Origin: Chlorobium sp.
GTDB lineage: Bacteria; Bacteroidota; Chlorobiia; Chlorobiales; Chlorobiaceae
Length of the DNA: 56,440 bases
Direction of reading: 5' to 3'
Assembly (NCBI GenBank): GCA_005843805.1
Contig: SZXY01000024.1
Location: 1-56,440 of the forward strand
A model generated the notes under the pieces. It was not told the origin of the DNA. It worked only from the letters and a program-made list of their open reading frames with translations, and did not search any database. Shown piece after piece: positions 18,601 to 42,989 of this stretch. Position numbers and translations under genes: made by a program. How positions within the stretch are numbered: position 1 is the first letter of the stretch; each line of letters opens with the position of its first letter.

Positions 18601-19228
18601 ATTCTGCCATCGCCGAAGGGGTGAAAGCGAGACCGGTAAAGGCGCTTTTCCAGCCACCTGCATCGATATCATCATCTGCTTCAGCAGCAATATGATCCCA
18701 AAGCTCTTCCCTCATAAGCTCTCCTGGTGTTTCAATCAGGGAATCAACATCGTCGGAATCAAGTGTGAGGCTGAATTTCAGTTCAGGGCACATCCACTCC
18801 AGTTTTTGCATGTCACCGGCGGTTTCGGCAGAAGCAAGAAGTGCAACGGCATTGGCTAACGAAAGAAGCTTGCTGCGACGTTCAAGTGGAAGAGTCGGGT
18901 CAATGGGAAGATAGACACACCCGGCCTTAATGACGCCAAAAAGGGCTGCAATAAAGAGACGATGCCGCCCGATCATGACGCCGACCCGACTCTCCGCCGT
19001 CACCTGCTGGTGATTCAGAACATCTGCAATGCGATTTGACAGCTCGTCAAGTTCCGCGTAACTCATGCATCCCTCTTCATCGACTACCGCATGACGTGCA
19101 GGAAAAAGGCGGACAATTTCAGAAAAACGTGAAACGATATCGGCAGAGCCAATGGCAGCAGAGGATTGAGGGCTTCCTGAAGCAACCTTTGCTGATGGGT
19201 CATCAAAAGTAAAATTTGCAATTTTCAT
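15695..19228 (-). CDS. NRPS: interrupted A domain (methyltransferase between A2 and A3)-T-TE (1177 aa); no C domain
   Basis: A1/A2 region (GVIKAGCVYLPIDPTLPLERR), then SAM-MT fold (VLEIGCASGFTMRYIAPL), then A3 YLIFTSGSSGQPKG to A10 ITSNGKIDERRL; T: DDFFMLGGHSVLGIRLL; TE: AGWSFGGLLAWEAA ... GTHGQML. Confidence 0.93.
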   Translation of the reverse strand: MKIANFTFDDPSAKVASGSPQSSAAIGSADIVSRFSEIVRLFPARHAVVDEEGCMSYAELDELSNRIADVLNHQQVTAESRVGVMIGRHRLFIAALFGVIKAGCVYLPIDPTLPLERRSKLLSLANAVALLASAETAGDMQKLEWMCPELKFSLTLDSDDVDSLIETPGELMREELWDHIAAEADDDIDAGGWKSAFTGLAFTPSAMAEFGTNALKKIAPLLKPGARVLEIGCASGFTMRYIAPLSASYLATDLSRHNAERVEVVARSLGMRHVTGRHLAAHDIDILPQGSFDLIILNSVIESFPGYGYLRMVLNKSTNLLAPGGRLFLGNLWDLERHDAYLADLAEFARTHADEGYSTRSNLAGSFFVPSAFFLNWAAQQAENPSIMASRIEAPGFDPAPYAFDVIISFEESLEGTPSEESRSPLHLDRRALFAEQPNPPEPSGMEINPRRAAYLIFTSGSSGQPKGVLVEHGPVINLSHAIEEKIYAPLLAETKQGSLDISCCFSFAFDGSIHQIFTPLLNGHTVHLPLEETRQDPERLHSFIESHRLNVVDATPSLFALLIDYWESNERGCTANCFILGGEALSTSLMERFYAFTEHLNSEVWNAYGPTETCVSASQYRMSASTWNKFLPPPVGSPLSGVDIKICDEAGRSMPTGIPGEIRIGGACLAREYLNEPELTARHFVLDEEGKRWYCTGDIGRWLQPGLLQFTGREDRQVKVRGYRIELSEVESALLASPLVRQAAVVVADPRNDGDRVLVAYIVANKGFDSGRCRADLDLRIPAWMMPTLIVEIDELPITSNGKIDERRLPSLHKTDRLNPNNRARKLFTRDTERKLAALWQKILDLPVESTDDDFFMLGGHSVLGIRLLSLIESSFGVKIPLTELFTSTTIARMADRIEARQEASAWHSVVAIHTGGSHTPLVCFHPVGGNVLCYKALAEALGSDWPLYMVQASGLEAGQALQPTIEMMVSGYLRELNEIIPHHPLIMAGWSFGGLLAWEAAHQLRQMGRKIESVIILDGIATPDPIRSMLQKDEADFIATLFDEMGLGSAEFLRSLTPEERLDQIVLLDRGGDYLPNGLDRQQMRRLLALFQNNGMAAVRYQPPASTEDLLLIRPRIPSSQAPGIPGDDYNGWSSLVGGKVELRWIDGTHGQMLHPPFAGQMADHIRQYIDRTAP
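18000..18720 (-). other. Methyltransferase domain embedded in an adenylation domain (approximate bounds)
   Basis: RVLEIGCASGFTMRYIAPLSASYLATDLS ... FDLIILNSVIESFPGYGYLRMVLNKSTNLLAPGGRLFLGNL. Confidence 0.85.
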
Positions 19229-24444: not shown

Positions 24445-26085
24445 CTAACTGTTTTCGTTCCTGTTTTCCTGAAGCTTTTCGATCTGGCCATCATGCATTT
24501 TGTACATGCTGTCTGCCAGGTGGAACCATCGATCATCATGCGTTACACATATAATGATCTTTCCACGTTTTTTGAGATCCGGCAAAATTTCTTCGTAAAA
24601 GATGCGGCGAAAGTGAGGATCCTGGTCTGCTGCCCATTCGTCAAGGACAATGATCGGTTTGTTCTCAAGTTCAGCGACGATAAGTGCGAGCCGTTTCCGC
24701 TGTCCAGAGGAGAGATCTATTGTACTGAAAGAGCCATCGCAAACCGTCACTTTGTCTTGCATGCCGAAACGTTCGAGCATTTCACCAATCCTCGCCGGAT
24801 TTGGTTCTTCAATTGATGTGAGGCGTCTTGAAAGATGGAAATCGGAAAAAATGGCCGAAAATCTGTTTCGATAGTCCTGCATCTGCTCAGTTTTGAGTTC
24901 TGTGCCATCAGCCAGGAGAGAGCCTGTGTCAAGTGGAATAAGGCCGGTGAGCAGTCGCAGCAAGGTCGATTTGCCGGAACCATTTCCCCCGGTGATGAAG
25001 GTGATCTGGCCGGCATGGAACTCAGCAGTTAGTGGACCGACTTTGAAGAGGGAGATTCCTTCCTTGTCACGGTAAGAGAGTTCGGCGTTTCTGAGGGCAA
25101 TTGACAAGGGTGATTTTTCCAGCGAACCCGTCTCCTCACTTGATACTGTTTTTGCAGCGGCAGCCAGCCGGTTTTTTATGTTGTCAATATTTTCAAGTGC
25201 CAGTTCGGCTTTTGTTACGAGGGGAGTGACAAAGGAAACCGTACTTACCGGTCCTGAGATAAAAAGTACAGCGATAGTGGCAGGAAGAACTACCTCGTGG
25301 AAGCCGGCAACGAAGAGCGGGACAACGAAAACCATCAAGCCAACCAGAGAAAACAACATTGCCTCGATGACGGCATAATTTCGGCCCCACTGCGCTTTGA
25401 GTAATGAGCTGGTTGTGCGTGATTCTTGAGATGCCTCCCCGAGGGTTGCTGTTACATCGTCCGCACGCGCTCCGCTCATTCTGATCTCTTTGAATCCGTG
25501 CAGGAGCTCGGTAAGGCCATCAAAAACCCTTTTTTCAGCGTCGGAAGCTGATTGCATCATTGTTCGCAGTGCCTTGACGCGAGAAAAACGTATCGCGACG
25601 GTTAACCCGGCAAGACCGAATGCGAGGATACATGCAAAAGGTGAAAGCCAGGCAAGGTAGGCTGCAAGGAAAAGCAGCATGACAGCCTGCTGAAACCCTA
25701 TGACGAGCATTGGCAGCACTTCGGCAAGAATTTGCGTATCCTGGGTAAGAGCACCCTGAAGGGTGGCGTGACCGATTTTTTCGATCGTGACCAGATCAGT
25801 TCGGCGGATCAGCTCGAACAGGCCAACACGCAGCTTGTGTATCAGTCGTTCGGTATCTTTCGAGGCCGTCACCAGCGTATAGATGTGTGTTACGTGATAG
25901 AGTGCCAGAGTGATGGCGAACATCAGCATAAGACGTCCGCTGATTTGGCCGCTTCCGCCCTCTTTTGAAGCTGTCGAAACCAGTGCGACGAGGGACATTG
26001 TTGCCACTGCTGACAAAATATTCATCAAGAGGAGTGATTTGAGATTTTCCGGAATTTCCCGCACAACGGCGTTAAATAGTCTCAT
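24445..26085 (-). CDS. Cyclic-peptide-type ABC exporter, fused TMD-NBD (SyrD/PvdE-like), paralog 1
   Basis: Walker A TGGNGSGKSTLL, signature LSSGQRKRLAL, Walker B PIIVLDEWAADQDPHFRR, H-loop CVTHDD. Confidence 0.9.
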   Translation of the reverse strand: MRLFNAVVREIPENLKSLLLMNILSAVATMSLVALVSTASKEGGSGQISGRLMLMFAITLALYHVTHIYTLVTASKDTERLIHKLRVGLFELIRRTDLVTIEKIGHATLQGALTQDTQILAEVLPMLVIGFQQAVMLLFLAAYLAWLSPFACILAFGLAGLTVAIRFSRVKALRTMMQSASDAEKRVFDGLTELLHGFKEIRMSGARADDVTATLGEASQESRTTSSLLKAQWGRNYAVIEAMLFSLVGLMVFVVPLFVAGFHEVVLPATIAVLFISGPVSTVSFVTPLVTKAELALENIDNIKNRLAAAAKTVSSEETGSLEKSPLSIALRNAELSYRDKEGISLFKVGPLTAEFHAGQITFITGGNGSGKSTLLRLLTGLIPLDTGSLLADGTELKTEQMQDYRNRFSAIFSDFHLSRRLTSIEEPNPARIGEMLERFGMQDKVTVCDGSFSTIDLSSGQRKRLALIVAELENKPIIVLDEWAADQDPHFRRIFYEEILPDLKKRGKIIICVTHDDRWFHLADSMYKMHDGQIEKLQENRNENS

Positions 26086-27731
26086 TTTGTATCCTCCTTG
26101 TCTATATCGAGTTCTGTCAACTGACCTTCCTCAAGATGCAGACGACGGTCTGCACTATCAAAATAGCGGTCATCGTGCGTTACAGCGATAATGGTTATTT
26201 TTCGACGTTTTAGTTCCGGCAGGATTTCACGATAGAATTTATGCCTGAAGTATGCATCCTGGTCAGCGGCCCATTCGTCAAGGATCAGGATTGGTTTTTT
26301 TTCAAGGAGTGCCGCCACAAGAGCAAGACGCTTGCATTGACCCGTAGACAAGTCAGTGCGGGTAAATCTGTCGCCATTGATTCCGACCACACGCTCCATC
26401 TCCATCCAGTGCAGAAGATCTTCTGCGGTTACATTATCGACTTTCCCAAGTCCGTAAAGCTTTGAGAAAAGGTGAAAGTCAGAGAATACCGGTGCCATCA
26501 GGGAACGGTATCCTGAGAGGTTTGTTGGTGAGACAACCCTGTTGTCTTTCAACAGTTGGCCACGTTGGGGATGATAGAGACCGGTCAGCAGTTTGATGAA
26601 GCTTGATTTTCCCGAGCCGTTGCCACCGGTGATGAACAGGACTTCCCCTGGATGTATGGTGACGTTCAGCGGGCCGAGAGTGAAAGGAATCTCTCCTTCG
26701 GGGGCTGGATACGCAAATTCAATATCAGCCATCCGGATTTCGTTGAAGTTGGTTGAAGGTGGCTCGGCAGCTTCCGCACTGCTTTGCTCTTCAATGCTTG
26801 CCAGTTCGCTGTCAAGTGCCATCATACGGCCTGCTGCAGCTTTTGCCGCACGCAAAACGGTAAGGGATTGCATCAGTCCAAAAACAGGCGGAACCATGAA
26901 AAGTACCGCTGCTGATATCTTTACCAACTCACTCCTGATTGCAGGAGAATAAATCGGGACAACAAACACCACAAGTCCCAGCATCAGGTTGAACATCGTT
27001 TCACCAAAGACGAACTGTTGCCAGCTTTGGCGGTGCAGTTCGCTTCGTGTTGTGACCGTGTGGGTAGAGAGCTCATTAAACTCATCGCCAAGAGCCTGGC
27101 TCCGTTTGCTGTTGAGTCGCTGCTCCTTGAATCCGTCAAGGAGGTCGGAGACGCATTCAAAGAGTTTGGCTTCATCGGTGGATAACTCTTCCTGGCATTT
27201 CTCCAGCGAAAGACCAAGCTGGTAGTATGCATAAGAAGCGGCGACAAGCAGGATTGTCAAAAGCAGAAAGGCGACCAGCGAGATTGTGGCGATGTAGATG
27301 AGGATCATCGCGATCTGTATGACTGAACGTGTTGCCAGGGCAAGGTATTGGGAGTTGGATGAAACGATCTTGCAGCTCTGCGTGATGTTTCCGAACAGCC
27401 TGCTTTGGCCAAAGTGTTCGAGTTTCCAAAGATCGCCATGGCGAAGCCGATAGATCAATTTCATTCGCAGTTTGTCTATCGCTTTTTCAATATCAGACGC
27501 AAACTGCTCAACCAGACGGCTTTCATAGACAACGTAGATCAGCAGGCAGATTAAAAAGAGCCCGGCAACCGGTACATCGACAAATTCCTCTTTCGTATCA
27601 TTGATCTTTTGCGCAGCGATGGTAACAACTGCAAGTACAAGGGTGGTGCTTAATGCCGATGCTGACGCAAAGGCAAAAAGCTTGCGGAGTGGTTTGTCAC
27701 TGATCGATTGCAGGAGGCGAAGCAGATTCAC
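26082..27731 (-). CDS. Cyclic-peptide-type ABC exporter, fused TMD-NBD (SyrD/PvdE-like), paralog 2
   Basis: Walker A TGGNGSGKSSFI, signature LSTGQCKRLAL, Walker B PILILDEWAADQDAYFRH, H-loop AVTHDD; ATGA overlap with paralog 1. Confidence 0.9.
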   Translation of the reverse strand: MNLLRLLQSISDKPLRKLFAFASASALSTTLVLAVVTIAAQKINDTKEEFVDVPVAGLFLICLLIYVVYESRLVEQFASDIEKAIDKLRMKLIYRLRHGDLWKLEHFGQSRLFGNITQSCKIVSSNSQYLALATRSVIQIAMILIYIATISLVAFLLLTILLVAASYAYYQLGLSLEKCQEELSTDEAKLFECVSDLLDGFKEQRLNSKRSQALGDEFNELSTHTVTTRSELHRQSWQQFVFGETMFNLMLGLVVFVVPIYSPAIRSELVKISAAVLFMVPPVFGLMQSLTVLRAAKAAAGRMMALDSELASIEEQSSAEAAEPPSTNFNEIRMADIEFAYPAPEGEIPFTLGPLNVTIHPGEVLFITGGNGSGKSSFIKLLTGLYHPQRGQLLKDNRVVSPTNLSGYRSLMAPVFSDFHLFSKLYGLGKVDNVTAEDLLHWMEMERVVGINGDRFTRTDLSTGQCKRLALVAALLEKKPILILDEWAADQDAYFRHKFYREILPELKRRKITIIAVTHDDRYFDSADRRLHLEEGQLTELDIDKEDTK

Positions 27732-27785: not shown

Positions 27786-29051
27786 TCATGGGTTGAGATA
27801 ACTCGTTATTTTCTCCACATTTTTCTTGAAAGCTTCACACAACAGCCTGTGGCTCTCTTCTTTAAGGCAGCTTTCAACCCCGAATCCTGTTTTTCCTTCT
27901 CTGCTCAATCCGTTTATCTCCACAATATTGCCAAACCGGTTATCGGGGTTCATGCTCTCGCCACTTGACTCTCCCATGCGTATCTGCCAGAATTTCTCTT
28001 CTGTCCCGCCAACATGTTCAAGATAGTTAAAGAGAATTTCAGGCAACTGCTCATAGCCATGTATTGCTCCGTATCCTATGGCCTTGTGACGAACTCTGCT
28101 TTGGCTATTGCGGTTCCTCTCGATTGTATCGTCGATATCTTTGCCGACACTTAAACAGAGAGGGAAGAGTGTTGTGAACCATCCCACCGTTCGACTTATA
28201 TCTGTATGGTTGTCCAGCTTGTCCCGCCCATCTTTTTCGACGGTGATCCAGTTCTGCTTTTTGCCACTTACCTCATAAAGAGCATAACTCAAGCCGCTCA
28301 ACAGCACATCATTGATGTCGGTATTTCTTGCGCTTCTCTTTGTCTGAAATAACGTCCTGCTGATCTCTGCCGAAAAATCCACTCTGCTGTATCGTAACTC
28401 GCGGTCATCTTTTTCGGCAAGTTCCTGCCACTCATCTTGTTGATGTTCTTTGCGCTCTCTGTGCCATTCAAGCCAGTATTGGCGCTCTTCTGCGGTCGCG
28501 GTTTTTCCATATTCCTTCACAGCTTCAACCCATTGAGGGTAACTGCTGCAATTGTTTTCGACTTCCCTGCCTTCATAGAGCGCTTTCAGCTCTTCCCGGA
28601 TTATCGGCCAACTGGCGGCATCGAACACCAGATGGTGGAAAGCAAGATATATCCGTTCGCTCCCGTCTGCATATCCTCTCAAGATACCGCATTGCCAAAT
28701 ATAGCCTCTCTCGGTGTCAAACCCGCTTTGCCACTGTGTCAGTTCATGGAATATCTCGTCTTCTTTTTTTCCTCTGATATCCAGCTCCCTGATTTCCGCT
28801 ATTGGGCTCTCTTTGCGAATGTATTGTTTTCCGTCTCGATATACGGCCCTCAACATCGAATGCCGCCTGTTCAGCTTTTCAAGCGCTCTTTGTACTCTCT
28901 CTTTGTCCGTTTTTTCATTGACATAAATAAGAAAAGAGTGGTTAAAATGATTTGCTGCCGGCAATGTTTTTGCCATAAACCATTTTTGAATTGGCAGATA
29001 TCCAATGGGTTCCATTTCCATTTGCTTATCGAATACGGGCATGCTCTTCAT
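27786..29051 (-). CDS. Free-standing NRPS epimerization (E)-type condensation-superfamily protein (421 aa)
   Basis: PIQKWFMAKTLPAANHFNHSFLIYV, FHHLVFDAASWPIIREEL, VEKDGRD...TDISRTVGWFTTLFPLCL, IGYGAIHGY, PEILFNYLEHV: order and content match E domains; no A or T on this ORF. Confidence 0.82.
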   Translation of the reverse strand: MKSMPVFDKQMEMEPIGYLPIQKWFMAKTLPAANHFNHSFLIYVNEKTDKERVQRALEKLNRRHSMLRAVYRDGKQYIRKESPIAEIRELDIRGKKEDEIFHELTQWQSGFDTERGYIWQCGILRGYADGSERIYLAFHHLVFDAASWPIIREELKALYEGREVENNCSSYPQWVEAVKEYGKTATAEERQYWLEWHRERKEHQQDEWQELAEKDDRELRYSRVDFSAEISRTLFQTKRSARNTDINDVLLSGLSYALYEVSGKKQNWITVEKDGRDKLDNHTDISRTVGWFTTLFPLCLSVGKDIDDTIERNRNSQSRVRHKAIGYGAIHGYEQLPEILFNYLEHVGGTEEKFWQIRMGESSGESMNPDNRFGNIVEINGLSREGKTGFGVESCLKEESHRLLCEAFKKNVEKITSYLNP

Positions 29052-29099: not shown

Positions 29100-30250
29100 T
29101 CATGCGTTGAAGGTTGTCATTGCCCTCCTCAAAAGAGCCTTCACTCCTTTTGCTGGAATTGAGGGCCAGGTGATGCCGGATTTCTCAAGCAGCAGCCGGG
29201 TTCGATCTGAAGCAACCTCCATTCCATGTTGCCGGGAGAAGGGTGAGTGGCCTGTTTGAAGTCCATAATTTTCAACGGTTTCAGCAAGAGCAGATTCCAT
29301 CTCCGGCTCGTCGATTGCGCCAAGTAATCGTTCAAGAAAAGAGCTGAAGTTGCAGGTGCGGACTTTACCATCCAGCTCTCCGGCTGAAAGAATTATGTCG
29401 GCCAGCGACTCCCTGCGTGAGGTGTCAATATGGTGAATCTCATTGGAGAGCGTTTTTCTGCCAGCGAGTGCAATGATCGCTTTTGCAACAATGTCAACAT
29501 GGCAAAGCGATGCTGAAAGTTCAGTCGGCAGGCAGCCAAGGCGCAGAAACGCCGAAAGTTGGCGGAAAAAAGCGTTATCTGAAATGTTCCTTTGCAATTG
29601 TGTGCTGTCTGTTGCAAAGGCAATGTTACCTGCACGATGGATGCATGTGTTTGCCAACACTTCCCGTGATGAGATTACCAGCCGTTCTGCCTCCTGTTTT
29701 GTGCGGATATAGTAGTTGTCATCGGCAGTTTCAGGGGCGTAGTCATACTCTGTAAAGAGTCTGAAATCGCTTGACGATGCGCTGGCGAATACCGAAAGAG
29801 TAGAGACAAAATGAAAATCAGCCGTGACCGGTTTTTTTTGTGCAGCCAAATTCAGCAGGTGTCGTGTTGCGGCTACGTTGTCAGCAAAAAAATCACGGTA
29901 GAGCCCTATATGGTTTACATTGGCTGCGCAGTGAAAAATGGCATCCACACTGGCTGCAAGTTGGTCGTAATCGTGCCGTGGGAGAAGAAGTGTCTCGTCC
30001 CTCAGGTCACCTGCCAAAACATGCAGGCGCGGGTTGTCGCCTAACGCGCTGCCATGCTCACTTCCGAAGTAGCCTCTCAAAACCTCTCCAAGACGGCTGC
30101 GAGCAGTTTGGTTGTCGTTGCTGCGTACCAGCGTTGTTACCTTGATCGACCGGTCGGCAAGAAGCTCACGCAAAAGGTAACTGCCAAGATAGCCGGTTGC
30201 TCCGGTGAGCAGCACATGACGGTATGAGTTGCGCGATTCAATATCACGCT
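29100..30250 (-). other. Thioester reductase (R/TD) release domain (approximate bounds)
   Basis: HVLLTGATGYLGSYLLRELLADRSIKVTTLVRS ... IFHCAANVNHIGLYRDFFADNVAATRHLL ... YIRTKQEAERLV (YxxxK). Confidence 0.9.
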
Positions 30251-33200
30251 GGAGATCAGCCTGTATCCTTGTTTCATAAAGGGTGCGTTGCGGTCGCAGT
30301 GCATTGTCACGTTCGCTTGCACGAACTGCCTGCAGACTCCGGCCATCATCATATTCTTTTTGGGCACTCTTGATCATCAAGCGCAGGTGATCGGGACGTG
30401 GACGGCAAAGAAGGGCGAAGTCCGAAAGAACCGGATGTTCGTAAAGGTTGTTCACCTGACACTCGAACTCGCGGCGGAGTCGGTTTATCACAGCGATTGC
30501 CCTGAGGCTGTCGCCGCCAAGTTCAAAGAAATTATCCTCTCGTGCGGCATCAGCACCATTGAGCTGAGCCGACCATATTTCAGAGATCCGCTTTTCAATG
30601 CCGCTCTGCGGAGGAGTTCGCACTCTGTTGTTTCTGGCCTCCGGGATCTCTTTAATTCCACAATCTGCTGCTCGGTTCATCATGTCGAGCAGTGCACGGC
30701 GATCCACTTTGCCCGCCGCCGTAAGCGGTATTTCGGAGACACTGAAAAAGGATGACGGAATCATATAGGAGGGCAGTGATTCTCTCAGGAAGGCTGACCA
30801 CTCGGCCTGGGTTGGAGTCGCATGAACGGCATCAAGTTTGACGAAAGAGCGGAGTGCTTGTGTCTGGTCTTCCAGTGTTTCTATGAGGGCTACAGCCTGC
30901 ACTACACCCGGAAAGGTTGCAAGGCGATGTTCGATCTCGCCAAGCTCAACCCTCTGTCCGCGCAATTTGACCTGTGTGTCTCGACGGCCAAGGATTTGTA
31001 ATTCACCTGTCCGGAGCCAACGTCCCAGATCGCCGGTTCTGTAGAGTCGTTCACCCCCCGAATCCACGAAAGCTGCAGCGGTGAGATCTGGACGATTGAG
31101 GTAACCTGCAGCAAGTCCGATGCCTCCAAGCAGCAGTTCGCCGATAACTCCAGGAGGGAGAGGATTCAAGCACTCATCCATAATGTAGACACTCATGTTG
31201 GAGAGAGGCCTTCCTGCCGTGATGAGCTCCGTGTCGGGAAAAATACGGCCAAGTGTTGTTGCGGCAGAATTTTCGGTTGGGCCATAGCCATTGAAGTAAG
31301 CGAGCTTCGAGGCATAGTGGCGTGCGTCATCCGCAATGGGCGATTCTCCGACGGTCATCAGAATCTTCAGGCCAGGGAAATCAGCTCGCCCGAAAAGCCG
31401 CAGATAGGATGGTGACATAGTCGCAATAGTGACTCCGAGTCGCTCGATCAGCGCTTGTATGCCGGAAATGTCATTCATCTGCTGGCGCCTTACTGGAACC
31501 AAACATGCACCCCTTGCCCATGTTATCACAAGATCGCTGATCCATAGATCGAACGATGGTGATGCAATCTGCATGGTACGGTCATCTTTGCTGATGCCAA
31601 AAATTCGGCTCTCGTCCATAGCGAGATTGAGCATGCCTTTGTGGCGCAGTGCAACCCCTTTTGGAACGCCGGTTGAACCCGATGTGTAGATAATATAGGC
31701 GGTTTCGTCGGGAGTGATTGTTATGTCGAGAGCGGGTGGATCAACTGCACCGGCAGCAATCTCTTCGGGTCGAAGAGAGGTAAAGTGATCACTCTTGAGT
31801 TCAGGTGGAAGAGAGAGAGAGTCCAGCACAATGATCAAACGTAACCCGGCATCCCTGGCCATGAAGGCAAGTCGTTCTGCGGGAAGATCGGCAGTCAGGG
31901 GCAGATAGCATGCCGCAGCCTTCCAGATTGCAAGGACAGTTTCTGGAAGCGCGGCTGACTGTTCTGTGAAAACCCCGACTGTTTCGCCGCGCCTGACACC
32001 AAGGTTGATGAGTGCCCTTGCAAGGGCATCTGCGCGACTGTTGATTTCCTCGAAGCTCACTACCCCGTCGTCAGTGACTATTGCCGCTCGTTCAGGGTAA
32101 GCCGAGACTATCTGCTGAAACAGCTCAGGGAAAGAAGTTGCAGGCAAAGAACGGATCGGGCCATTCTGCCACTTGTCAAGCAGTTCTCTTTCCTCTGGCA
32201 GCAGTTTCGGAAGCTGCATATCGTTTTTGTAAGAGTTCTCCCCGAGGAATCGCATCCAGCCAACAAGCGAATCAAACCATGTAAGGGCGCTCTCTTTCAG
32301 GTAAATTGCGGCATTGGCGTACCATGTCAGGACAAGGGAACCATCGCTCTCTGACTCATGTACCAGTACCAGGTCTTGTGCAGGAGCATTGCGCCGCAGT
32401 TCGTAGCTGGTTACTCCAGCCTCATGAACTGTCGTGGCACTGAAACAGGGATCTCTTTCAGGAGTGACCCTGAACGCAGGGTTTTCGGTGACCGCAATGT
32501 CAAAAAGCGGATAACGGGCAGGGTGCGTTGCAAGTCGATGTTTCTCTCGAAAGTTACCATAGATGCGCACAAAAGGGAAGCGGGAATGCTGCAGTGCTTC
32601 TGCCAGATGTTGTTGCATTGCTTGTACCAATTCATCGAAAGAGCCTGATTGAGGAATATGGCAGGCAAGAGGAAGCATGTTTATAAAGTAGCCGATTATT
32701 TGTGCTTCGGCTGCCGACTGGCGGGTTGAGCTTGCTGTGCCCATCAGAAATTCAGAACGTCCTGTGCGGCGCCGTACTTCGTGTCCGAGAACGGCAAGCA
32801 TGAGTGCATGGAGAGTAGAGTTGTTTCGCCTTGCAAGTTTTCGAAGTGCATTTGCCGTTACAGCGTCAATCCGTGTTTGTAAACAATGGCTTCCCGGGCA
32901 AGAGGTTGCCGAACGAGCATTGGTGCGTGGTATGTCAAGAGGCCATTCGTCGAGAGAATCTGGTGCTCGCTCAATCAGGTTTTCGATGACCTTTTGCCAG
33001 TAGTCGGCATCTGAACTGGCGGTTTGGCTCTCAAGATATGCCGCTTCGTTAGCTGCTGCCCGGTCAAATCCTGCTGGTGGGGGAGGCAGCCTTTCGCCTT
33101 TCATCAGTGCAGAAAGCTCATCGATGAGGATACCAAGCGAAAGACCATCCCCAATGGCATGATGCATGACAAACCAGAAAATTGTTTGATGGCTCTCTGT

Positions 33201-36200
33201 AACTTCCGTCAGACCGGCACGCCAGAGAGGCGGCATGGCCATGGAAAAAGGTTCTGTCTGGCGATTGCCAATATGCAGATACGCTTCATTGCTCGATGCT
33301 GCAACATGCAGCTCAAGGGTTTTATCGATTTTTTCAGTGACAACACGTCTGAGAATACCGGCCTCGTTTTCGAGGAAAGCTGTGCGCAGAGCCTCGTGTC
33401 GTGAAATCAGTTCGTTCCATATTGTTTCCCATCGTTCGATGGCAATCGCATTGCCATGCACGACAAGCTTCAGTGGAATATTGAAACCGCTTGTGTCGAG
33501 TCCCGCCTGCTGGGCTGTCCAGAACTCACACTGTCCAGGCGTTGCCAGATCGGTTGAGATATCGGGGGCTGGCCTGGAAGGTCGGGCAAGACGAACTCTT
33601 TCGGTAAAACCCGCAAGTGTTGGTTCAGCGAACAGTTCGCGGGCTGGCACTTCAAAGCCGAGCGATTTTTCGAGCTGGTGGACGACTGCGATTGCAAGCA
33701 GGCTGTGTCCTCCGAGCGCAAAGAAGTTGTCCTCCAGATGGATATGATTTCGTCCGAGTACTGATGCCCAGATTTCAGCAACGCAACATTCCAGTTCATC
33801 CCTGGGTGAAGTGGAGCCTGATGGCAGAGTCTGCTCTCGGAGCAAGGCATGCAGTGCGGTTCGGTCAACCTTGCCTGCAGCCGTCAATGGAATCGATTGC
33901 AGCGCAATCACACCGGAAGGAATCATGTGCGAAGGAAGTCGCTCTCCGAGGAAGGCTTTCCATTCATCCATCTCCGGCATCTGGTGTCCAATCGACATCA
34001 GGACAAAGGCCCATAGACTTTTTATTCCTTCATCCTGCTCCAGGAGCACAACCACAGCCTGCGAGAATGCCGGATGGCTTGCAAGTGCATACTCGATCTC
34101 GCCGGGTTCAATGCGGATTCCGTTCAGCTTTACCTGATTGTCTTTACGTCCGATGATCTCGATTGTTCCATCCTGGTGCCAGCGGCCAAGATCGCCGGTG
34201 CGGTAGCGACGTCCCGATGGTGTGACGATGAAACTTGCCTCAGTCAGTTCTGGCTGGTTCAGATAGCCCTGACAGATACCTGCTCCACCAAGCCAGATCT
34301 CTGCGGCAACTCCTGGAGCAACCGCATCTCCTTTATCATTGCAGATATGAACGCTGGTATTGGGTAGAGGTCTGCCAGCCGAGATATAAAGCCCTTCGTC
34401 ACCTGTAATGCGCCCCATTGTACTGGTGATAGTGTTCTCCGTAGGGCCATAGGCATTGAAATAGCTGAGTGTCGAACCATATTTTTTTACATCAGCCGCC
34501 AGCGGCGCCTCTCCACCGGTGACCAGAATCCGCAGGGAAGAAGGAAGTGCAGCCCCTTCGAAGAGTCCAAGGTAGGTTGGCGTGATATCTGCCACTGAAA
34601 TGTGCAGCCTGTCGAGGAATTCAATAAAACGGTTTGGTGACTCAATGATGTTGTAAGGAACCGGGCAGATCGCGGCTCCGCAGACGAGAGGCAGTCCAAT
34701 ATCGGAGAGAGAGACATCGAATGAGGGTGAGGCGAACATCAGGCAACGATCGATGGCTTTCAGACGGAACATGCCGGCAGCACCGAGTACCATGTTCACG
34801 AAACTGTCGTGACCGATTATAGTGCCCTTGGGTTTGCCAGTCGATCCGGATGTATAAATAATGTAAGCCGCATCATCATACTGGCTGAAAGAGAGAGGTT
34901 TTTTTGAGTGTCGCTGACAAAACGATTCGGATAACTCCTCCGGGCGGAGGGGTTCCGGTAATCCTTCCGCCAGAAGATCAGGCATGGTAATGCCGTCGAG
35001 AGCAATAAGGTGCGAGATTCCGGCGTCGTGAGCCATAAAGGAAAGACGTTCGGAAGGCTGGTCTGAGGCAAGAGGCAGGTAGGTGGCACCCGCTTTCCAG
35101 ATACCAAGCAGTGTGGCAGGGATGTTCAGGGAGCGGGCGGTCAGAACACCGACAATGCTTCCGCGTTTGACCCCTTGCTGTACAAGGCTGTGGGCGATGG
35201 CGTTGGCTTTCTCATCGAGAGCTCGATAGGAAATGCTCTTTTCGAGGGTGATTATGGCAGGACGACCATCTTGTCCTGGCTGCTGAACCATCATTTCGAA
35301 CAGTTCGTCGAAGCGCAATCGAGGTCGCTCGATGCTCTCTCCCTGTTCCCGGATAGCCAGAAGTATTTCTTCTTCCGGCAACAACGGTGGAAGGGGTTGT
35401 GTTGCATGTTTCGGATTTTCGGCGAGCCAATTTGCCCATCCTCTCAGAGATTCCATCAGGATTCTTGCACTCTCTTCGGTGTAGATTGCCGCGTTGACAT
35501 GCAATTGCAGAAGAAGTCCGCCTTCTTCCAGATTTTCATGAATGAGGACCATATCCTGCCCCGGAGAGGCATCAGTCCGTTCATAGCTTATGGTGCCGGG
35601 AAGCTTTGCTGCTCTTGCCACCGTAAAACGACGGGGCAGGCTTCCGGTTCGGCTGCCGGGGTTTTCGGTTACTGCAATGTCAAAGAGAGGGTAGCGCTGG
35701 GGATGGCGTCTGTCGGGGTACTCCTTCCAGAATGCACTGTAAATGCGGGAAAATGGCAAACGTGCATGTTGCAGGGCTTCAGCGAGAGTTTGCTGCGTTG
35801 AACGCAAGAGGTTCCGGAAGCACTCCTGTAAATCCGGACGAAGGTGCAGCGGCAGCATGTTTACGCCGTAACCGATAATGTGCGAGTCAGATGTTGACTC
35901 CCTGACGGATGCTGTCGTGCCGATCATGATGTCAGAACGACTGCTACGGCGAGCGCTTTCCATTGCAAGGAGCGTCACTATCAGCGAGTGAAGAGTAGAC
36001 TCGCAAGTTCGAGCAAGAGTTCTCAGGGCTTCTGCTCTCTGTGGGTCGATAAGAACCTCAAGACGATGGTTTCCTGATGGAGTTCTCGATGAACGCATCA
36101 TATCAAGGGGCCACTCCTCAAATGCTTTGGAAGGTACTTTTTTCAGGAGATCACTCCAGTATTGTGAGTCATCTATGGAGTCTGATGAGGCAAAGTATAA

Positions 36201-39200
36201 CTCTTCGCGGGCGGCAAACACCTTTGCTCCAGGCGAGGCCGAGGAAAGCTTTCCTTCGTCAAGTACTACTGTCAACTCGTCAAGGAGTGTGCCGACTGAT
36301 TGTCCATCACCAACGGCATGGTGAAGGGCAAGCCAGAAAAATTGAGAGTTCTCATCACGCGCTTCAACGATACCGGCACGCCAGAGTGGGGCAACTTTCA
36401 TTGACAGTGGAGCAAGCTGGCGCTGGCGGATGAGAGTCAGTGCGTCAGAGGCAGAGGAGGTAACGCTGAATTCCAGAATGACATCGATTTTCGAGGTGAC
36501 CCGTCGTTTCAACTGCCCGGTTTCATCACTTTCAAAAAACGTTCGTAATCCATCGTGTCGGTTTACCAGCGTTGACCAGGCGCTCTGCAAGCGCTCCGGG
36601 GAAAGGTTTCCAGTGACGATCTGGTTAACAGGAATGGTGAAGGTACGGGTATCGAGCCCTGCCGATTCAGCAATCCAGAACTCTTTTTCGCCTTCAGTGG
36701 CAAGATCAGTTTCGGGCAGCTTCTCATTGTGTTCCTGAAGAGCAGATTGCCTGGCAATTATTTCAACAAACCCCGCAAGAGAAGGGGCAGCAAAGAGTGC
36801 ACGTGCTGACACCTGAAGCCCGAGACTCTCCTTCACGCGGTGCGCCACACTTACCGCCAGCAGGCTGTTGCCGCCAAGAGCAAAGAAATTGTCGTTGCGG
36901 GCCACAGGAAGTTTGAGCAGATCAGACCAGATGGCAGCGATACGCTTTTCAAGCGGATCTTGAGGCATCTCTTGAACAACGCTCCTGTGCTGCTGTCTGG
37001 CATGGTTGAGAAGCGCTTGCCGATCAATCTTTCCTGCAGGGGTAAGCGGGATAACGGCAACCGGTATGATCGTCGAAGGGATCATGTGTGCGGAAAGATG
37101 TTCGGCAAGAAATGCTGTCAGTGAAACCTCGGAGAGTGCAGCCTGGTTGTTTGGTTGAACAAACGCCTTGAGAACCTTGACGTTTATCTCTGACTCCTCG
37201 ACAAGAACGACAGCATTGGCGACTTCAGGGTGTCGGCAGAGTATCTGTTCTATTTCACCAAGCTCAACCCGTTGGCCGTTCAGCTTGATCTGTTGGTCGA
37301 TACGGCCACTGATCACTATCTGGCCCTCTGTATTCCAGTGTCCAAAGTCTCCTGTTCGATAGAAGAGCGTTTCTGGTGTGGCCACAAAGTGCATGGCACT
37401 CAGTTTGGGCTGGTTGATATAACCATGTGCAATTCCGATACCTCCGAGCCAAAGCTCACCCTTGGCACCGGGTGGTACCAGGGAGCCGTCTTCACGTCGA
37501 ATCGAAATTCGTACATTTGGCAGTGGTCGTCCAACCGAGAGCGGCATATCCGGATCATGATCGCTCAGGATATGTTCTCCTGAAACCACGATTGTTGCTT
37601 CAGTTGGGCCATAAAAATTCCAGAATGCGCACCGGTCGGCATAATGGCGCAGGTCATTATAGTTCGGTGCTTCTCCACCAGTCAGCAGGATGCGCAATCC
37701 CTCAAAAGGAAGCTGTTCGCTGACACGCAGGTAGGAGGGAGCATGAAAAGCAATGGTGACACCGAGTTCACGATAGTATGGTTTCAGCAGCCAGGGATCG
37801 TCACGAAGGCTCTGCGATACAGGCACAAGGGCAATCCCACTCAGTAATCCGTGTCCAAGTTCCCAGAGAGATGCGTCGAAGCTGGCAGTGGAGACCAGCG
37901 CTATACGGTCATCAGGGCGAAGGCCAATTCTCTCTGTCACTCCGAGAATGGTATTGATATATGCAGCATGGGTGACGGGAACCCCTTTTGGCGTTCCCGT
38001 CGTGCCAGAGGTGTATATTATATAGGCAATGTCATCGGGAGAGGCCTGCGTGTTTAAACGGCGCAGAGAAGGAGTAAACTCCCCGGTATGGATAATGGTT
38101 TGTACCGATTCTTCCAGAGCAGGCGGGATGGTAAGTCCGTCAAGGACGATGAGTATGGATGCACCTGCGTCGCTGGTCATTCTCGCCAGTCGTGCTCCTG
38201 GCAGTTCATAAGCAAGTGGCAGGTAGGTTGCGCCTGTTTTCCATATTCCCAGTATAGTTGCCGGAAGATCGGGTGAGCCGGCAGTGAGCACGGCAACTGT
38301 GCTTCCTCGAACTGCACCACGCTCTGAAAGTCCCTGTGCGATTCCATTGGCCAGGGTATCGAGTTGTGCACAAGTTGTGATGCGATCGCGGCAAACGACA
38401 GCCTCTTTATTCGGATGCTTCTCACTCAACGCTTCGAAGAGTTTGTGGCAGCACTGGTCTGGACGAGGCTGCTTTGCACCCTGTTCCCAGAGTTCCAAAA
38501 GAGTGATTTCGTGGGGGAGCAATGCCGGAACCGGACAGAAAACGCGGTCGGGATCCTCGGCAAACCATCGTGCCCATGCAGCAAATGAGGAGAGCCATGC
38601 CCTGGCACACTCTTTGGTGCATACATCAGGGTTCCATGTCAGAAGGAGATTCAGTACTCCACCGTTTTCAGGGGATAGCTCATGGCTGAACGAAAGATCA
38701 AGACCTGCAGCCGTGTGTTCGAGCTCTCCCGGCAATGAGTAAGGCGCCAGGGTGAGAGCCGCTTCCTGGTCTATGCTGATTCTTGGCGGTATTGCTGTCA
38801 GTGCGATATCAAAAAGCGAGGTGCGTGAACCTGCCCGACAATCGGGATGACGTTGGCGGAACTCCCTGTAGAGCAGGCCGGCTGGATAGGAGCCATGTTC
38901 AACCGTTTCGGTAAGAGCGTTCTGGGTGCTTCGAAGAAGATCAGGAAAGGTCAGCTCTTTTTCTTGCGGAAGGATTACGGGAAGCACATTGACAAAGTGC
39001 CCGACAGTGCTATCGTCTCCTGCGGGGCGGATGGTTATGCCGCTGCCAACCATGATGTCACGGTGACCGCTCCGTCGCCTTATCTCTATGGCGAGGATGG
39101 TGAGCAAAAGTGCGTGCAGTCCGATTGCATGCATTTTTGCAATGCGGCCAAGTGCAGTAAGCGTGATGGTATCGAGTTGTTCGGCAAGGGGTTCTGCACC

Positions 39201-41654
39201 TCGTCCACCGGGTACTGCTGGTCGCGGGAGTTCGGTGACGCACTCATTGAAGGCGTCGCTTTCACTGAGAGCAAGATCATCGAGCCTGCTTAACCAGAAC
39301 TCCCTGTCGCGAGTGGCTTTTGCAGAAGCAAAGTATTGTTGTTCTGCAAAGCTTGCCAGGGCGATACCGTTTGGTACCGGCGGCAAGGGACGCAGGGCAA
39401 GCAATGCAAGCAAATCCTCCTGGATCAAACGGGCTGATGAACCATCTGCCACGCAGTGGTGGAGGACAAACCAAAAAAGTGTTTCGTTTTCCTCATCGAT
39501 CGTTATCAAGCCAGCTCTTGCAAGGGGGGGGACAGTAAGCTGGAATCTTTCGTTTGCCCATCGTTCCACTATGTTGCGGGCATCCTCCATCGAGAGGCAG
39601 TGATCAATTCGGATCAATGCAGATGACGGGAGTTCGTGGGATGCTACAGTCCTCCAGCAGAGAGTGCGTTTTTCGTCCAGATACAACGCCGTGCGCAGGG
39701 CGGCATGACGATCAAGCAGGCCAGTCCAGGCCGATTTCCATGCAGCAGGAGATGGTATCCGACCTCTGACTTGCAGAACCCGAACAATGTGGGAGGCAGC
39801 CGGAGCCAAACCAATTTCCGAAGCAATCCAGAAATCCTCCTGGTCAGTCGTTGCAATATTCTCAAGTGAGGTTTCATTGGTAATGTCTGGCGCTTGATGC
39901 TGCATAGCCTCGATATGTGATGCCAGCGCCTTTACGGTCAGCGTTGTGAGTACTGTCTGCACCGGGACGCTGTATCCAAGCCTTTGAAGGCGCTGACTTA
40001 CGGCAATTGCCAGAAGACTCGTTCCCCCTACCGCAAAGAAATTGTTTTCCCTCTGGATCGGTCGTATATCAAGGAGATCCTCCCATATCCCGGCAATTGT
40101 CACTTCCAGTTCGCTCTGCGGAGCTGTTCCGCCATCTCGTTGCCGATCTTCTTTGAAGAGGGATTCGACGCTCTTGAGAAGGGCGTTTTGATCGATTTTT
40201 CCGGCAGAATTGATGGGTATTTTAGCCAGTACGGCAATCTCGGCAGGAATCATCCAGGAAGGCAGTTTCCTTTGGAGAAACTCCCTCCAGTCAACAGCTT
40301 CTCGCTGGTCTGGATTTTTGCACTCCACACACGCCACAAGCCGGCCATTGAGTTGCAAGACCTTCGCTTGTCCCACTGCAGGGTGGCTTTGCAGTGCAAG
40401 CTCAATTTCGCTGGACGAGACTGATTGCCCGGAAATTTTGATGACATTGTCTTCCCGACCGAGTGTCTCAAGTTCTCCGTTTGAGTTCCATCGAGCCAGG
40501 TCGTGCGAACGAAACGCTCGTCCGTAAGGTGTTTCGACAAAATACTCGGCTGTCAGTTGAGGTTGTTTCAGATATCCGGGTGAAACGCCGATACCGATGA
40601 CATGGAGTTCGCCGACCTCGCCTTTCGGGACTTCATTGCCCTCTGCGTCGAGCAGGTGGACTGATGTATTGGCAAACGGTCGGCCACTCGGGATCAACCC
40701 CTTTTCTTCAGGATTGACATGATGCATGCAAATCGTGCCGCAGACTTCGGTAGCTCCGTGTATATTCCAATAGTCGAGATATCGTGCGTAATGCCTTGCT
40801 TCATCATCATTTGGTCGTTCGCCGGCAGTAATGATACAGCGAAGTCCCTTTGGCACGGTTCTGTTGAGCAGATGCAGATATGATGGAGTAAACATTGCAA
40901 TCGAAACGAGATGTCGCTCCATAAATTCGAGAAGGAGAGTCGGGTTGTCGATTGTTGAACGCGATACGGGTACGAAAGAGGCTCCACTCATGAAAGGAAG
41001 GCATAGCTCACGAAAGCCAAGGATAAAGCCTGGTGAGGCAGAAAGTAAAAGACGATCCTCACAGGATATGTTGTGTGCGGCAATATGACCGAGTGCCATA
41101 TTCACACAACCCTGATGCTGGATCATAACACCCTTGGGTATTCCGGTAGAACCGGAGGTAAAGAGAATAGCTGCCAGATCACTCATCTCGGATGTTTGCG
41201 GGCAGACCGGGGAGGTTTCCTGCCAATCTTCCGGTAATAACTCAGGCCGGATAAGTGTTTGAGAGAGAGTCACAGAACCATTGCCTGTCACCTGCTCGAT
41301 GAGCTCAGGGGGAGGTTCAATGCCATCGAGCACAATTAAAAGACGAATATCTGCTTGCCTGGCAATGTTTGCCAGACGTTCTGCGGGCAGGTCGGTGACC
41401 ATTGGAACATAGACACCACCAGCCTTCAGAATTCCCATGAAGGCAGCCGGCAATCCTGCTGATCGCTCAGTAAGCACTCCAACCGCTTCCTGGGCTTTAA
41501 TTCCCAGGCGACGGAGTTCCATGCCAACCTTTTCTGCAGCAGCGTCCAGTTCGCCGTAGGTGAGGAGAAAATCATCGGTAATAAGCGCTGGGGCCGATGG
41601 TTGCTTGAGCGCCAATCTCTTGAAGCTGTCGTGTATTTTTTGGTAATGATGCAT
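29100..41654 (-). CDS. Four-module NRPS, A-T-C-A-T-C-A-T-C-A-T-R, with terminal thioester reductase (4184 aa)
   Basis: Four A domains (ILFTSGSTGIPKG, YIIYTSGTTGTPKG, YIIYTSGSTGKPKG, YIIYTSGSTGVPKG), four T domains (GGTSLLAIA, GGNSLLAVS, GGHSLLAIA, GGDSLRAIA), three C domains (HHCVADGSS, HHAVGDGQS, HHAIGDGLS), C-terminal Rossmann reductase (VLLTGATGYLGSYLLRELL). Confidence 0.95.
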   Translation of the reverse strand: MHHYQKIHDSFKRLALKQPSAPALITDDFLLTYGELDAAAEKVGMELRRLGIKAQEAVGVLTERSAGLPAAFMGILKAGGVYVPMVTDLPAERLANIARQADIRLLIVLDGIEPPPELIEQVTGNGSVTLSQTLIRPELLPEDWQETSPVCPQTSEMSDLAAILFTSGSTGIPKGVMIQHQGCVNMALGHIAAHNISCEDRLLLSASPGFILGFRELCLPFMSGASFVPVSRSTIDNPTLLLEFMERHLVSIAMFTPSYLHLLNRTVPKGLRCIITAGERPNDDEARHYARYLDYWNIHGATEVCGTICMHHVNPEEKGLIPSGRPFANTSVHLLDAEGNEVPKGEVGELHVIGIGVSPGYLKQPQLTAEYFVETPYGRAFRSHDLARWNSNGELETLGREDNVIKISGQSVSSSEIELALQSHPAVGQAKVLQLNGRLVACVECKNPDQREAVDWREFLQRKLPSWMIPAEIAVLAKIPINSAGKIDQNALLKSVESLFKEDRQRDGGTAPQSELEVTIAGIWEDLLDIRPIQRENNFFAVGGTSLLAIAVSQRLQRLGYSVPVQTVLTTLTVKALASHIEAMQHQAPDITNETSLENIATTDQEDFWIASEIGLAPAASHIVRVLQVRGRIPSPAAWKSAWTGLLDRHAALRTALYLDEKRTLCWRTVASHELPSSALIRIDHCLSMEDARNIVERWANERFQLTVPPLARAGLITIDEENETLFWFVLHHCVADGSSARLIQEDLLALLALRPLPPVPNGIALASFAEQQYFASAKATRDREFWLSRLDDLALSESDAFNECVTELPRPAVPGGRGAEPLAEQLDTITLTALGRIAKMHAIGLHALLLTILAIEIRRRSGHRDIMVGSGITIRPAGDDSTVGHFVNVLPVILPQEKELTFPDLLRSTQNALTETVEHGSYPAGLLYREFRQRHPDCRAGSRTSLFDIALTAIPPRISIDQEAALTLAPYSLPGELEHTAAGLDLSFSHELSPENGGVLNLLLTWNPDVCTKECARAWLSSFAAWARWFAEDPDRVFCPVPALLPHEITLLELWEQGAKQPRPDQCCHKLFEALSEKHPNKEAVVCRDRITTCAQLDTLANGIAQGLSERGAVRGSTVAVLTAGSPDLPATILGIWKTGATYLPLAYELPGARLARMTSDAGASILIVLDGLTIPPALEESVQTIIHTGEFTPSLRRLNTQASPDDIAYIIYTSGTTGTPKGVPVTHAAYINTILGVTERIGLRPDDRIALVSTASFDASLWELGHGLLSGIALVPVSQSLRDDPWLLKPYYRELGVTIAFHAPSYLRVSEQLPFEGLRILLTGGEAPNYNDLRHYADRCAFWNFYGPTEATIVVSGEHILSDHDPDMPLSVGRPLPNVRISIRREDGSLVPPGAKGELWLGGIGIAHGYINQPKLSAMHFVATPETLFYRTGDFGHWNTEGQIVISGRIDQQIKLNGQRVELGEIEQILCRHPEVANAVVLVEESEINVKVLKAFVQPNNQAALSEVSLTAFLAEHLSAHMIPSTIIPVAVIPLTPAGKIDRQALLNHARQQHRSVVQEMPQDPLEKRIAAIWSDLLKLPVARNDNFFALGGNSLLAVSVAHRVKESLGLQVSARALFAAPSLAGFVEIIARQSALQEHNEKLPETDLATEGEKEFWIAESAGLDTRTFTIPVNQIVTGNLSPERLQSAWSTLVNRHDGLRTFFESDETGQLKRRVTSKIDVILEFSVTSSASDALTLIRQRQLAPLSMKVAPLWRAGIVEARDENSQFFWLALHHAVGDGQSVGTLLDELTVVLDEGKLSSASPGAKVFAAREELYFASSDSIDDSQYWSDLLKKVPSKAFEEWPLDMMRSSRTPSGNHRLEVLIDPQRAEALRTLARTCESTLHSLIVTLLAMESARRSSRSDIMIGTTASVRESTSDSHIIGYGVNMLPLHLRPDLQECFRNLLRSTQQTLAEALQHARLPFSRIYSAFWKEYPDRRHPQRYPLFDIAVTENPGSRTGSLPRRFTVARAAKLPGTISYERTDASPGQDMVLIHENLEEGGLLLQLHVNAAIYTEESARILMESLRGWANWLAENPKHATQPLPPLLPEEEILLAIREQGESIERPRLRFDELFEMMVQQPGQDGRPAIITLEKSISYRALDEKANAIAHSLVQQGVKRGSIVGVLTARSLNIPATLLGIWKAGATYLPLASDQPSERLSFMAHDAGISHLIALDGITMPDLLAEGLPEPLRPEELSESFCQRHSKKPLSFSQYDDAAYIIYTSGSTGKPKGTIIGHDSFVNMVLGAAGMFRLKAIDRCLMFASPSFDVSLSDIGLPLVCGAAICPVPYNIIESPNRFIEFLDRLHISVADITPTYLGLFEGAALPSSLRILVTGGEAPLAADVKKYGSTLSYFNAYGPTENTITSTMGRITGDEGLYISAGRPLPNTSVHICNDKGDAVAPGVAAEIWLGGAGICQGYLNQPELTEASFIVTPSGRRYRTGDLGRWHQDGTIEIIGRKDNQVKLNGIRIEPGEIEYALASHPAFSQAVVVLLEQDEGIKSLWAFVLMSIGHQMPEMDEWKAFLGERLPSHMIPSGVIALQSIPLTAAGKVDRTALHALLREQTLPSGSTSPRDELECCVAEIWASVLGRNHIHLEDNFFALGGHSLLAIAVVHQLEKSLGFEVPARELFAEPTLAGFTERVRLARPSRPAPDISTDLATPGQCEFWTAQQAGLDTSGFNIPLKLVVHGNAIAIERWETIWNELISRHEALRTAFLENEAGILRRVVTEKIDKTLELHVAASSNEAYLHIGNRQTEPFSMAMPPLWRAGLTEVTESHQTIFWFVMHHAIGDGLSLGILIDELSALMKGERLPPPPAGFDRAAANEAAYLESQTASSDADYWQKVIENLIERAPDSLDEWPLDIPRTNARSATSCPGSHCLQTRIDAVTANALRKLARRNNSTLHALMLAVLGHEVRRRTGRSEFLMGTASSTRQSAAEAQIIGYFINMLPLACHIPQSGSFDELVQAMQQHLAEALQHSRFPFVRIYGNFREKHRLATHPARYPLFDIAVTENPAFRVTPERDPCFSATTVHEAGVTSYELRRNAPAQDLVLVHESESDGSLVLTWYANAAIYLKESALTWFDSLVGWMRFLGENSYKNDMQLPKLLPEERELLDKWQNGPIRSLPATSFPELFQQIVSAYPERAAIVTDDGVVSFEEINSRADALARALINLGVRRGETVGVFTEQSAALPETVLAIWKAAACYLPLTADLPAERLAFMARDAGLRLIIVLDSLSLPPELKSDHFTSLRPEEIAAGAVDPPALDITITPDETAYIIYTSGSTGVPKGVALRHKGMLNLAMDESRIFGISKDDRTMQIASPSFDLWISDLVITWARGACLVPVRRQQMNDISGIQALIERLGVTIATMSPSYLRLFGRADFPGLKILMTVGESPIADDARHYASKLAYFNGYGPTENSAATTLGRIFPDTELITAGRPLSNMSVYIMDECLNPLPPGVIGELLLGGIGLAAGYLNRPDLTAAAFVDSGGERLYRTGDLGRWLRTGELQILGRRDTQVKLRGQRVELGEIEHRLATFPGVVQAVALIETLEDQTQALRSFVKLDAVHATPTQAEWSAFLRESLPSYMIPSSFFSVSEIPLTAAGKVDRRALLDMMNRAADCGIKEIPEARNNRVRTPPQSGIEKRISEIWSAQLNGADAAREDNFFELGGDSLRAIAVINRLRREFECQVNNLYEHPVLSDFALLCRPRPDHLRLMIKSAQKEYDDGRSLQAVRASERDNALRPQRTLYETRIQADLQRDIESRNSYRHVLLTGATGYLGSYLLRELLADRSIKVTTLVRSNDNQTARSRLGEVLRGYFGSEHGSALGDNPRLHVLAGDLRDETLLLPRHDYDQLAASVDAIFHCAANVNHIGLYRDFFADNVAATRHLLNLAAQKKPVTADFHFVSTLSVFASASSSDFRLFTEYDYAPETADDNYYIRTKQEAERLVISSREVLANTCIHRAGNIAFATDSTQLQRNISDNAFFRQLSAFLRLGCLPTELSASLCHVDIVAKAIIALAGRKTLSNEIHHIDTSRRESLADIILSAGELDGKVRTCNFSSFLERLLGAIDEPEMESALAETVENYGLQTGHSPFSRQHGMEVASDRTRLLLEKSGITWPSIPAKGVKALLRRAMTTFNA

Positions 41655-41660
41655 GCAGCC

Positions 41661-42989
41661 TCAAATAGAGCCATTGTTGTCAGGGAATAATCTGGTCTGG
41701 TAACCCAGGCAGCGATAGCCGTTTGCGGCGGATACTTTGTCAATGCTGCGTACCCATTCGGCGTTAGCGCCCAGCTCATGCTTTACCCAGTTGCATAGAC
41801 TGATGGTTATTCCATGTTGCTCGGCAGCATGCTGAATTTTCTTGAGGTACTCAACACAGACGGAGCGTTCAGGCGCTATTCTTGAGCGTTGTTTGATATG
41901 GTTCTGATTTTCATCCGACAAGTATGGCCTAAAAAACTCCTTGACGAGCTTGGGGTCAAAATAATTGATGTAATTGGCAAGGATAACCAGATTTCGTATT
42001 TCTGTGGTCAGGAATTCAGGTTTGATGTTGCGGACTCCGGCTGACACGAGAAGCGCAAAGTATTTGTCGATGTTCTCATCGGTCAGATAGGGAAGCATCA
42101 GTGGCTGACACAACACTGACTCGGCATATATACCGAGTTCCCGGCATTTAACCAGTGTATCCAGCCTTTCCTCAATGGATGCAGCATTTGGTTCGAGCAC
42201 ATCACGAAGATACTTCGGCATGATGCCGATACTTCCGTTCAGTTGGATTTTTGAAGCGATGAGACTCATCAACGAAAAAAGAGAGTCGCCCTTATGGGTG
42301 ATATCGAGGTGCCTTGGGCCACCTTTTGTTGCAATGAAGATACGAATTGCGGAATCCGGGTGCCGGTCAAAATGACGTACAAAGGTGCGAATGATCTCAT
42401 GCGCTATGCCATTGAAAAGGTGTGGCTCCGAGAATGCTTCGGTTTTGGGTGAAAAGTAGTAGAATATGGATCTATTCCGATTTCGCTCAAGGGAGTTTGC
42501 CAGTCGCTCAGCATAGTTAGTATAGACTGTAATTGGTTTTACGTGATTGCCGTCGGTTACCAGACAGTACTGGCATGCCACTGCACACGATCCCGAAGAG
42601 GGAGATACTTCAAGAACGTTGGTTGGACAAAGTCCAGTATAGTTATGAATCTCCAGCTCCTCATTGCTCTCTGTCAGGCTTTCCTGATAATGATTGCCAG
42701 GAGTGAGATTATTGTTTTTATAGAGTTGGCCAAACCATTCTGAACCTCTCAGAAGCTCGGAGGTAACGTTTTGGCTGATTGTGTAGTCACGACCTGGTTC
42801 GTTGAGTACGGTGTTTTCAATGTCCAAAGGGGCAAATCCCTTTAGATCAGGACAGGCCGGTTTTTGTGAAATATACCGGAACTGGATGTCTGAAGGAGTT
42901 GCAGCCTTACATTCCTGACACTGAGTATGAGTGATATGGTTTGATTCCTGGGGCATAAATGAGGGGTTCAATCGTTTTTTATATCCCAT
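41661..42989 (-). CDS. Radical SAM protein, spore photoproduct lyase-like (442 aa)
   Basis: VSPSSGSCAVACQYCLVTDG (CxxxCxxC) followed by an SPL-like layout (YTNYAERLANSL..., IFIATKG..., ...AASIEERLDTLVKCRELGIYAESVLCQPL); extra N-terminal CQEC pair. 6-nt gap to the NRPS start. Confidence 0.82.
   Translation of the reverse strand: MGYKKRLNPSFMPQESNHITHTQCQECKAATPSDIQFRYISQKPACPDLKGFAPLDIENTVLNEPGRDYTISQNVTSELLRGSEWFGQLYKNNNLTPGNHYQESLTESNEELEIHNYTGLCPTNVLEVSPSSGSCAVACQYCLVTDGNHVKPITVYTNYAERLANSLERNRNRSIFYYFSPKTEAFSEPHLFNGIAHEIIRTFVRHFDRHPDSAIRIFIATKGGPRHLDITHKGDSLFSLMSLIASKIQLNGSIGIMPKYLRDVLEPNAASIEERLDTLVKCRELGIYAESVLCQPLMLPYLTDENIDKYFALLVSAGVRNIKPEFLTTEIRNLVILANYINYFDPKLVKEFFRPYLSDENQNHIKQRSRIAPERSVCVEYLKKIQHAAEQHGITISLCNWVKHELGANAEWVRSIDKVSAANGYRCLGYQTRLFPDNNGSI

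Follow-up and report, generated by a model that had tools for sequence, protein, structure and literature searches.

What does a radical-SAM (rSAM) protein contribute when its gene stands at the head of a nonribosomal peptide synthetase (NRPS) cluster? The question is raised by a minus-strand open reading frame of 442 codons with an ATG start in a 56,440-nucleotide stretch of Chlorobium sp. DNA (hereafter the window; Table 1). The first-pass annotation had described this gene as promoter-proximal and 6 nt from the start of a 4184-aa NRPS, and its product as similar to spore photoproduct lyase (SPL) and a possible catalyst of an unusual C-C bond formation or supplier of an atypical starter unit. 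The host genome is of Chlorobiaceae type, its closest named relatives being MAGs of this family of green sulfur bacteria. Judged by its homologues, which are 71-77% identical within the genus and 55-66% identical in Bacteroidales, the frame is a conserved gene and not a chance ORF. Its annotated start is probably too early: the homologues align from Met12 onward, and in one locus (L013) the equivalent residue is the sole in-frame start candidate found, so that the true start probably lies at Met12, giving a protein of about 431 aa. The gene is indeed promoter-proximal, since a run of same-strand genes extends from it down to position 752 (about 42 kb, its genes overlapping slightly or separated by no more than 54 nt) and its upstream neighbour (43349) is divergent. 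The ORF coordinates likewise bear out the 6 nt between the rSAM stop codon and the ATG of the NRPS. Because a GAGG that overlaps this stop codon could plausibly serve as the NRPS ribosome site, translational coupling of the two genes is possible. A promoter and terminator scan returned signals at chance level. The neighbourhood of the rSAM gene includes a DUF697-type gene both in the window (45485-46021) and in a Prolixibacteraceae locus (L004, 1773-2294; 45% identity), which may be coincidence.

Table 1. Features of the rSAM-NRPS cluster (window positions) and of the related Bacteroidales operons (positions in their own loci).
Feature	Position	Strand	Basis or remark
Radical-SAM gene	41661..42989	-	442 codons listed; likely start Met12, ~42956
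CxxxCxxC cluster motif (C135, C139, C142)	42564..42587	-	invariant in all aligned members
Pro181, family-invariant, at the SPL H-donor Cys141 position	42447..42449	-	joint alignment
NRPS, 4184 aa, A-T-C-A-T-C-A-T-C-A-T-R, terminal thioester-reductase-type NAD_binding_4	29100..41654	-	domain matches
Starter adenylation domain A1, no upstream C domain	40101..41654	-	domain matches
Ile at the GrsA Asp235 position of A1 (residue 211)	41022..41024	-	code extraction, alignment
Arg at the GrsA Trp239 position of A1 (residue 215)	41010..41012	-	code extraction, alignment
Ala of GATE for Pro of GPTE in A1 (residue 301)	40752..40754	-	alignment
Stand-alone condensation/epimerisation (C/E)-like protein	27786..29051	-	HHLVFDAASW; partial TIGR01720 match
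Two cyclic-peptide-exporter-type ABC proteins, conserved with the core	24445..27731	-	TIGR01194 above cut-off, both
Rest of run: NRPS, PKS/NRPS, methyltransferase-NRPS-TE, phosphopantetheinyl transferase	752..24417	-	in only some relatives
Bacteroidales operons	L005 8652-13316; L092 18428 to L093 3064; L094 14607-19101		

The product is predicted to belong to the radical-SAM superfamily. Its CxxxCxxC motif, already noticed in the first pass, reads C135-AVA-C139-QY-C142, and the top Foldseek matches of the predicted model are radical-SAM structures; the Pfam match (Radical_SAM, PF04055) is weak, with an E of 4.3e-4, below the curated cut-off. The extra N-terminal CQEC pointed out at the same time occurs in none of the homologues, the N-terminus as such being non-conserved, and was rejected as a second metal site for this reason. 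Five other cysteines (C121, C294, C378, C399, C427) are family-invariant, in an alignment with nearly half of all columns invariant, and are absent from SPL and PA0069; they may be ligands of a second Fe-S cluster, as in auxiliary-cluster radical-SAM enzymes. Sequence searches of the PDB gave no relative, and no homologue turned up in plasmid and viral collections. The closest library profiles are those of Rv2578c (NF038135, 33.6 bits against a cut-off of 430), PA0069 (NF033668, 19.7 against 360) and SPL (TIGR04070, 11.6 against 400; TIGR03886, 18.6 against 437.55), all far below their cut-offs. Rv2578c, PA0069 and our protein have the motifs S..T[DE] and EP..R in common. In our tree, in which PA0069 was the one of these two families represented, its sequences make up a deep clade of their own.

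How close is the protein to SPL? The AlphaFold model is of moderate quality (pLDDT 71), and from it SPL emerges as the best PDB match (E 2.5e-6; TM-score 0.41/0.50, TMq 0.41), followed by lipoyl synthase. A profile comparison aligns the same region with SPL at an E of 7.8e-4 and a probability of 25%. With SplB (PDB 4FHC/4FHG; TIGR04070) the protein shares the radical-SAM core, the CxxxCxxC motif and the collinear downstream motifs VY-x-N, TK and EP...R; it differs in a long N-terminal extension, in the C-terminal third, in its five additional cysteines and in its biosynthetic context. It differs, too, at the position of the SPL hydrogen donor Cys141 (Cys140 in the Geobacillus structure), which in a joint alignment is Pro in 15/15 family members with data; the B. 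subtilis reference sequence used here was checked against the PDB, where it matches 4FHC (E 4e-171). The resemblance to SPL noted earlier thus stands as a distant likeness in layout, while membership of the SPL family is rejected on the profile scores and the replaced catalytic cysteine. We regard the protein as a member of a new radical-SAM family distantly related to SPL.

The first-pass annotation had proposed a neighbourhood analysis, and the linkage to the NRPS proved recurrent. In 12/12 Chlorobiaceae-group loci examined the rSAM gene lies directly upstream of the same NRPS, and so it does in the Prolixibacteraceae MAG (L004, genome G309), in which the NRPS starts about 83 nt downstream and is represented on the contig by the starter domain and part of the first C domain. 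Since the Chlorobiaceae loci share descent, L004 is the more independent case. Homologues confined to DNA-repair contexts, the outcome that the first-pass annotation had named as a refutation, were not what the neighbourhoods showed. The starter domain (E <= 1e-200) occurs in 10/61 genomes, nine of which carry an intact rSAM gene; the other 51 have neither. In conservation the rSAM protein equals or exceeds the NRPS domains (71-77% vs 60-72%), and in the tree the NRPS-linked members fall on one side of a branch with a support of 93/98. Two types of cluster have only a core in common (rSAM, NRPS, C/E-like protein and ABC proteins), and their downstream genes differ. In G016 and G033 (L018-L020, L028-L029, L035) this core, including both ABC proteins, is followed by NRPS genes unlike those of the window, as if modules were exchanged around a fixed core. 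In the window, the end of the first NRPS (29100-30300) is of the thioester-reductase type and suggests that the first peptide leaves as an aldehyde, despite a separate thioesterase-ending NRPS (15695-19228) downstream in the same run. The GASSGMAAP motif of the PKS-NRPS (5437-14976) was considered as a sign of a fused protease; this was rejected, as Pfam places the motif in a ketosynthase domain.

The exception among the ten genomes is G010, in which the NRPS is intact and all that is left of the rSAM gene is a 3' remnant of 40 codons containing a stop codon (L036 14341-14800, G010:C81). No second rSAM copy was found in this genome, nor was a counterpart of the C/E-like gene at 27786 found in its cluster. 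As G010 keeps the NRPS after losing the rSAM gene, the enzyme is not strictly required; the Ile/Arg/GATE starter pocket of G010 is unchanged, so apparently either the starter can be loaded without the rSAM protein or the product has changed. A Thr-to-Ala change at starter residue 331 of G010 was examined as a result of the loss and discarded, because G223, in which the rSAM gene is present, shows the same change.

In 14/14 starter domains read, L004 included, A1 has lost the amino-binding Asp235 to Ile, carries Arg239 and has GATE in place of GPTE, whereas A2-A4 of the same NRPS retain Asp235 and GPTE, GPSE or GPAE. The residues read by code extraction against a GrsA reference segment are the same as those obtained by aligning A1 without gaps to the solved LgrA sequence. 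The A2 code (DAWFLGFIV) resembles, we presume from the code tables, that for Leu; the A3 and A4 codes (DVSDVGAIT and DLSTMVGAA) are conserved too. Loss of Asp235 and of the GPTE proline are features of keto-acid domains (StsA I306 and M415, LgrA P483; PMC11253843). A1 resembles the keto- and hydroxy-acid domains StsA/CesA and AulA-A2 in having an aliphatic residue for Asp235, and StsA also in the replaced proline. Unlike keto-acid depsipeptide modules, module 1 has its carrier domain closely behind A1, with no ketoreductase (KR) domain among the Pfam matches of the whole NRPS, and the five keto-acid codes listed by PMC5238615 (Table 1) all lack Arg239. This arginine may indicate that the far end of the substrate bears a carboxylate or other acidic group, and the pocket as a whole suggests a non-amino acid, perhaps a diacid. 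With Ile235 an amino acid is still conceivable, since McyG activates Phe despite Val at this position (PMC11253843).

A second line of evidence comes from Bacteroidales, in which rSAM homologues were found in four genomes among the sampled sets. G309 is the one with the NRPS. The other three (G310 with L005, G534 and G515) have a four-gene operon of a ligase, the rSAM protein directly after it, a GT2 glycosyltransferase and a DegT aminotransferase, followed in G534 and G515 by a WbqC gene on the opposite strand; the GT2 and DegT genes suggest an amino-sugar context. The ligase (P0005) has no Pfam match. It does match the E-64 pathway enzyme Cp1B (profile E 1.4e-14), and of the Cp1B catalytic residues R139, D141, E163 and N165 (PMC12568646) it keeps the first three, with Gly for the fourth. 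Cp1B is an ATP-grasp enzyme that joins trans-epoxysuccinic acid to amino acids, and its electrophile need not be an alpha-amino acid (PMC12568646). The likeness to the E-64 pathway (Cp1A/Cp1B) would extend to an acid cap joined to an amine, with an NRPS-independent amide bond in these Bacteroidales. E-64 formation draws its acid from an O2-dependent Fe/aKG oxygenase, whereas a radical-SAM enzyme would take that part here; moreover, the NRPS version of the cluster, unlike the E-64 pathway, is without Cp1B.

Two unrelated acyl-activating machines adjoin the rSAM protein and both indicate a non-amino acid, which leads us to propose that the enzyme makes or modifies an acyl cap that either the NRPS starter or the Cp1B-like ligase turns into an amide. 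We give this reading a tentative probability of about 45%. The enzyme would act on a carboxylic acid without an alpha-amino group, probably with a second acidic group; a 5'-deoxyadenosyl radical would abstract a hydrogen and some bond change would follow, a chemistry that we assume from the superfamily. An amide would then carry this acid as its N-terminal acyl cap. In Chlorobiaceae and the one Prolixibacteraceae genome, the starter domain of the adjoining NRPS would activate the cap and join it to a short peptide, and the terminal reductase domain would release the product, probably as an aldehyde; in the other Bacteroidales the Cp1B-like ligase would join the cap instead. The gene, its linkage to and co-occurrence with the NRPS, the altered starter pocket, the Cp1B homology and the missing SPL cysteine are computational results; the acid as substrate or product of the rSAM protein, its nature as a diacid and the order of the steps are what we infer. 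Supply of an atypical starter, as first suggested, thus becomes our favoured reading in view of the adjoining A1, and is weakened by G010, which retains the NRPS and its starter code without the enzyme.

That same genome makes a later tailoring role a serious rival, though a doubtful one. The rSAM protein might act on the chain while it is carrier-bound or on the peptide once released, forming for example a C-C or C-S crosslink, and not make the starter acid; the loss of the gene in G010 with the whole NRPS and starter code kept is what one would expect of a dispensable step, and the coupling of the rSAM gene to the NRPS fits as well. What speaks against it are the Bacteroidales homologues with no NRPS nearby. 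Their operon partners are limited to an acyl-activating ligase, a glycosyltransferase and an aminotransferase, and the family as a whole therefore does not share a peptidyl-carrier substrate. Alternatively, the enzyme could make an unusual amino acid or amine for a later position, either in module 3 or module 4 or, in Bacteroidales, as the acceptor amine. We consider this unlikely: the conservation of the A3 and A4 codes and the DegT aminotransferase, which could make such an amine, are compatible with it, but both codes retain Asp235 and GPTE-type motifs and the starter alone is clearly abnormal; modules 3 and 4 also lie beyond the end of the L004 contig. Hardly credible, finally, is an SPL-type enzyme of DNA repair whose position next to the NRPS would be incidental. 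The fold match and the collinear, if distant, alignment would agree with repair, but the scores far below the SPL cut-offs, the invariant proline at the catalytic cysteine and the strict co-occurrence with a biosynthetic cluster all argue against it.

Returning to the acyl cap, a bolder version can be envisaged, which we think quite improbable: an oxygen-independent route in which the rSAM protein would turn a simple acid into an unusual cap or warhead, to be attached to amines by the NRPS starter module or the Cp1B-like ATP-grasp enzyme. The outcome would be an anaerobic counterpart of the E-64 strategy, and the resulting peptide aldehydes might be protease inhibitors.

Peptide natural products of anaerobes are little explored. 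Our literature searches, which were limited, gave no radical-SAM enzyme that prepares or modifies a non-amino-acid NRPS starter and no on-topic match for SPL-like or radical-SAM enzymes with NRPSs. DNA repair is otherwise the role known to us for the SPL-like branch. If the proposed cap pathway holds, the acid loaded by A1 would be a directly testable substrate, and the pairing of a radical-SAM enzyme with an acyl-activating enzyme, in two unrelated forms, would provide a marker for mining the genomes of anaerobes.
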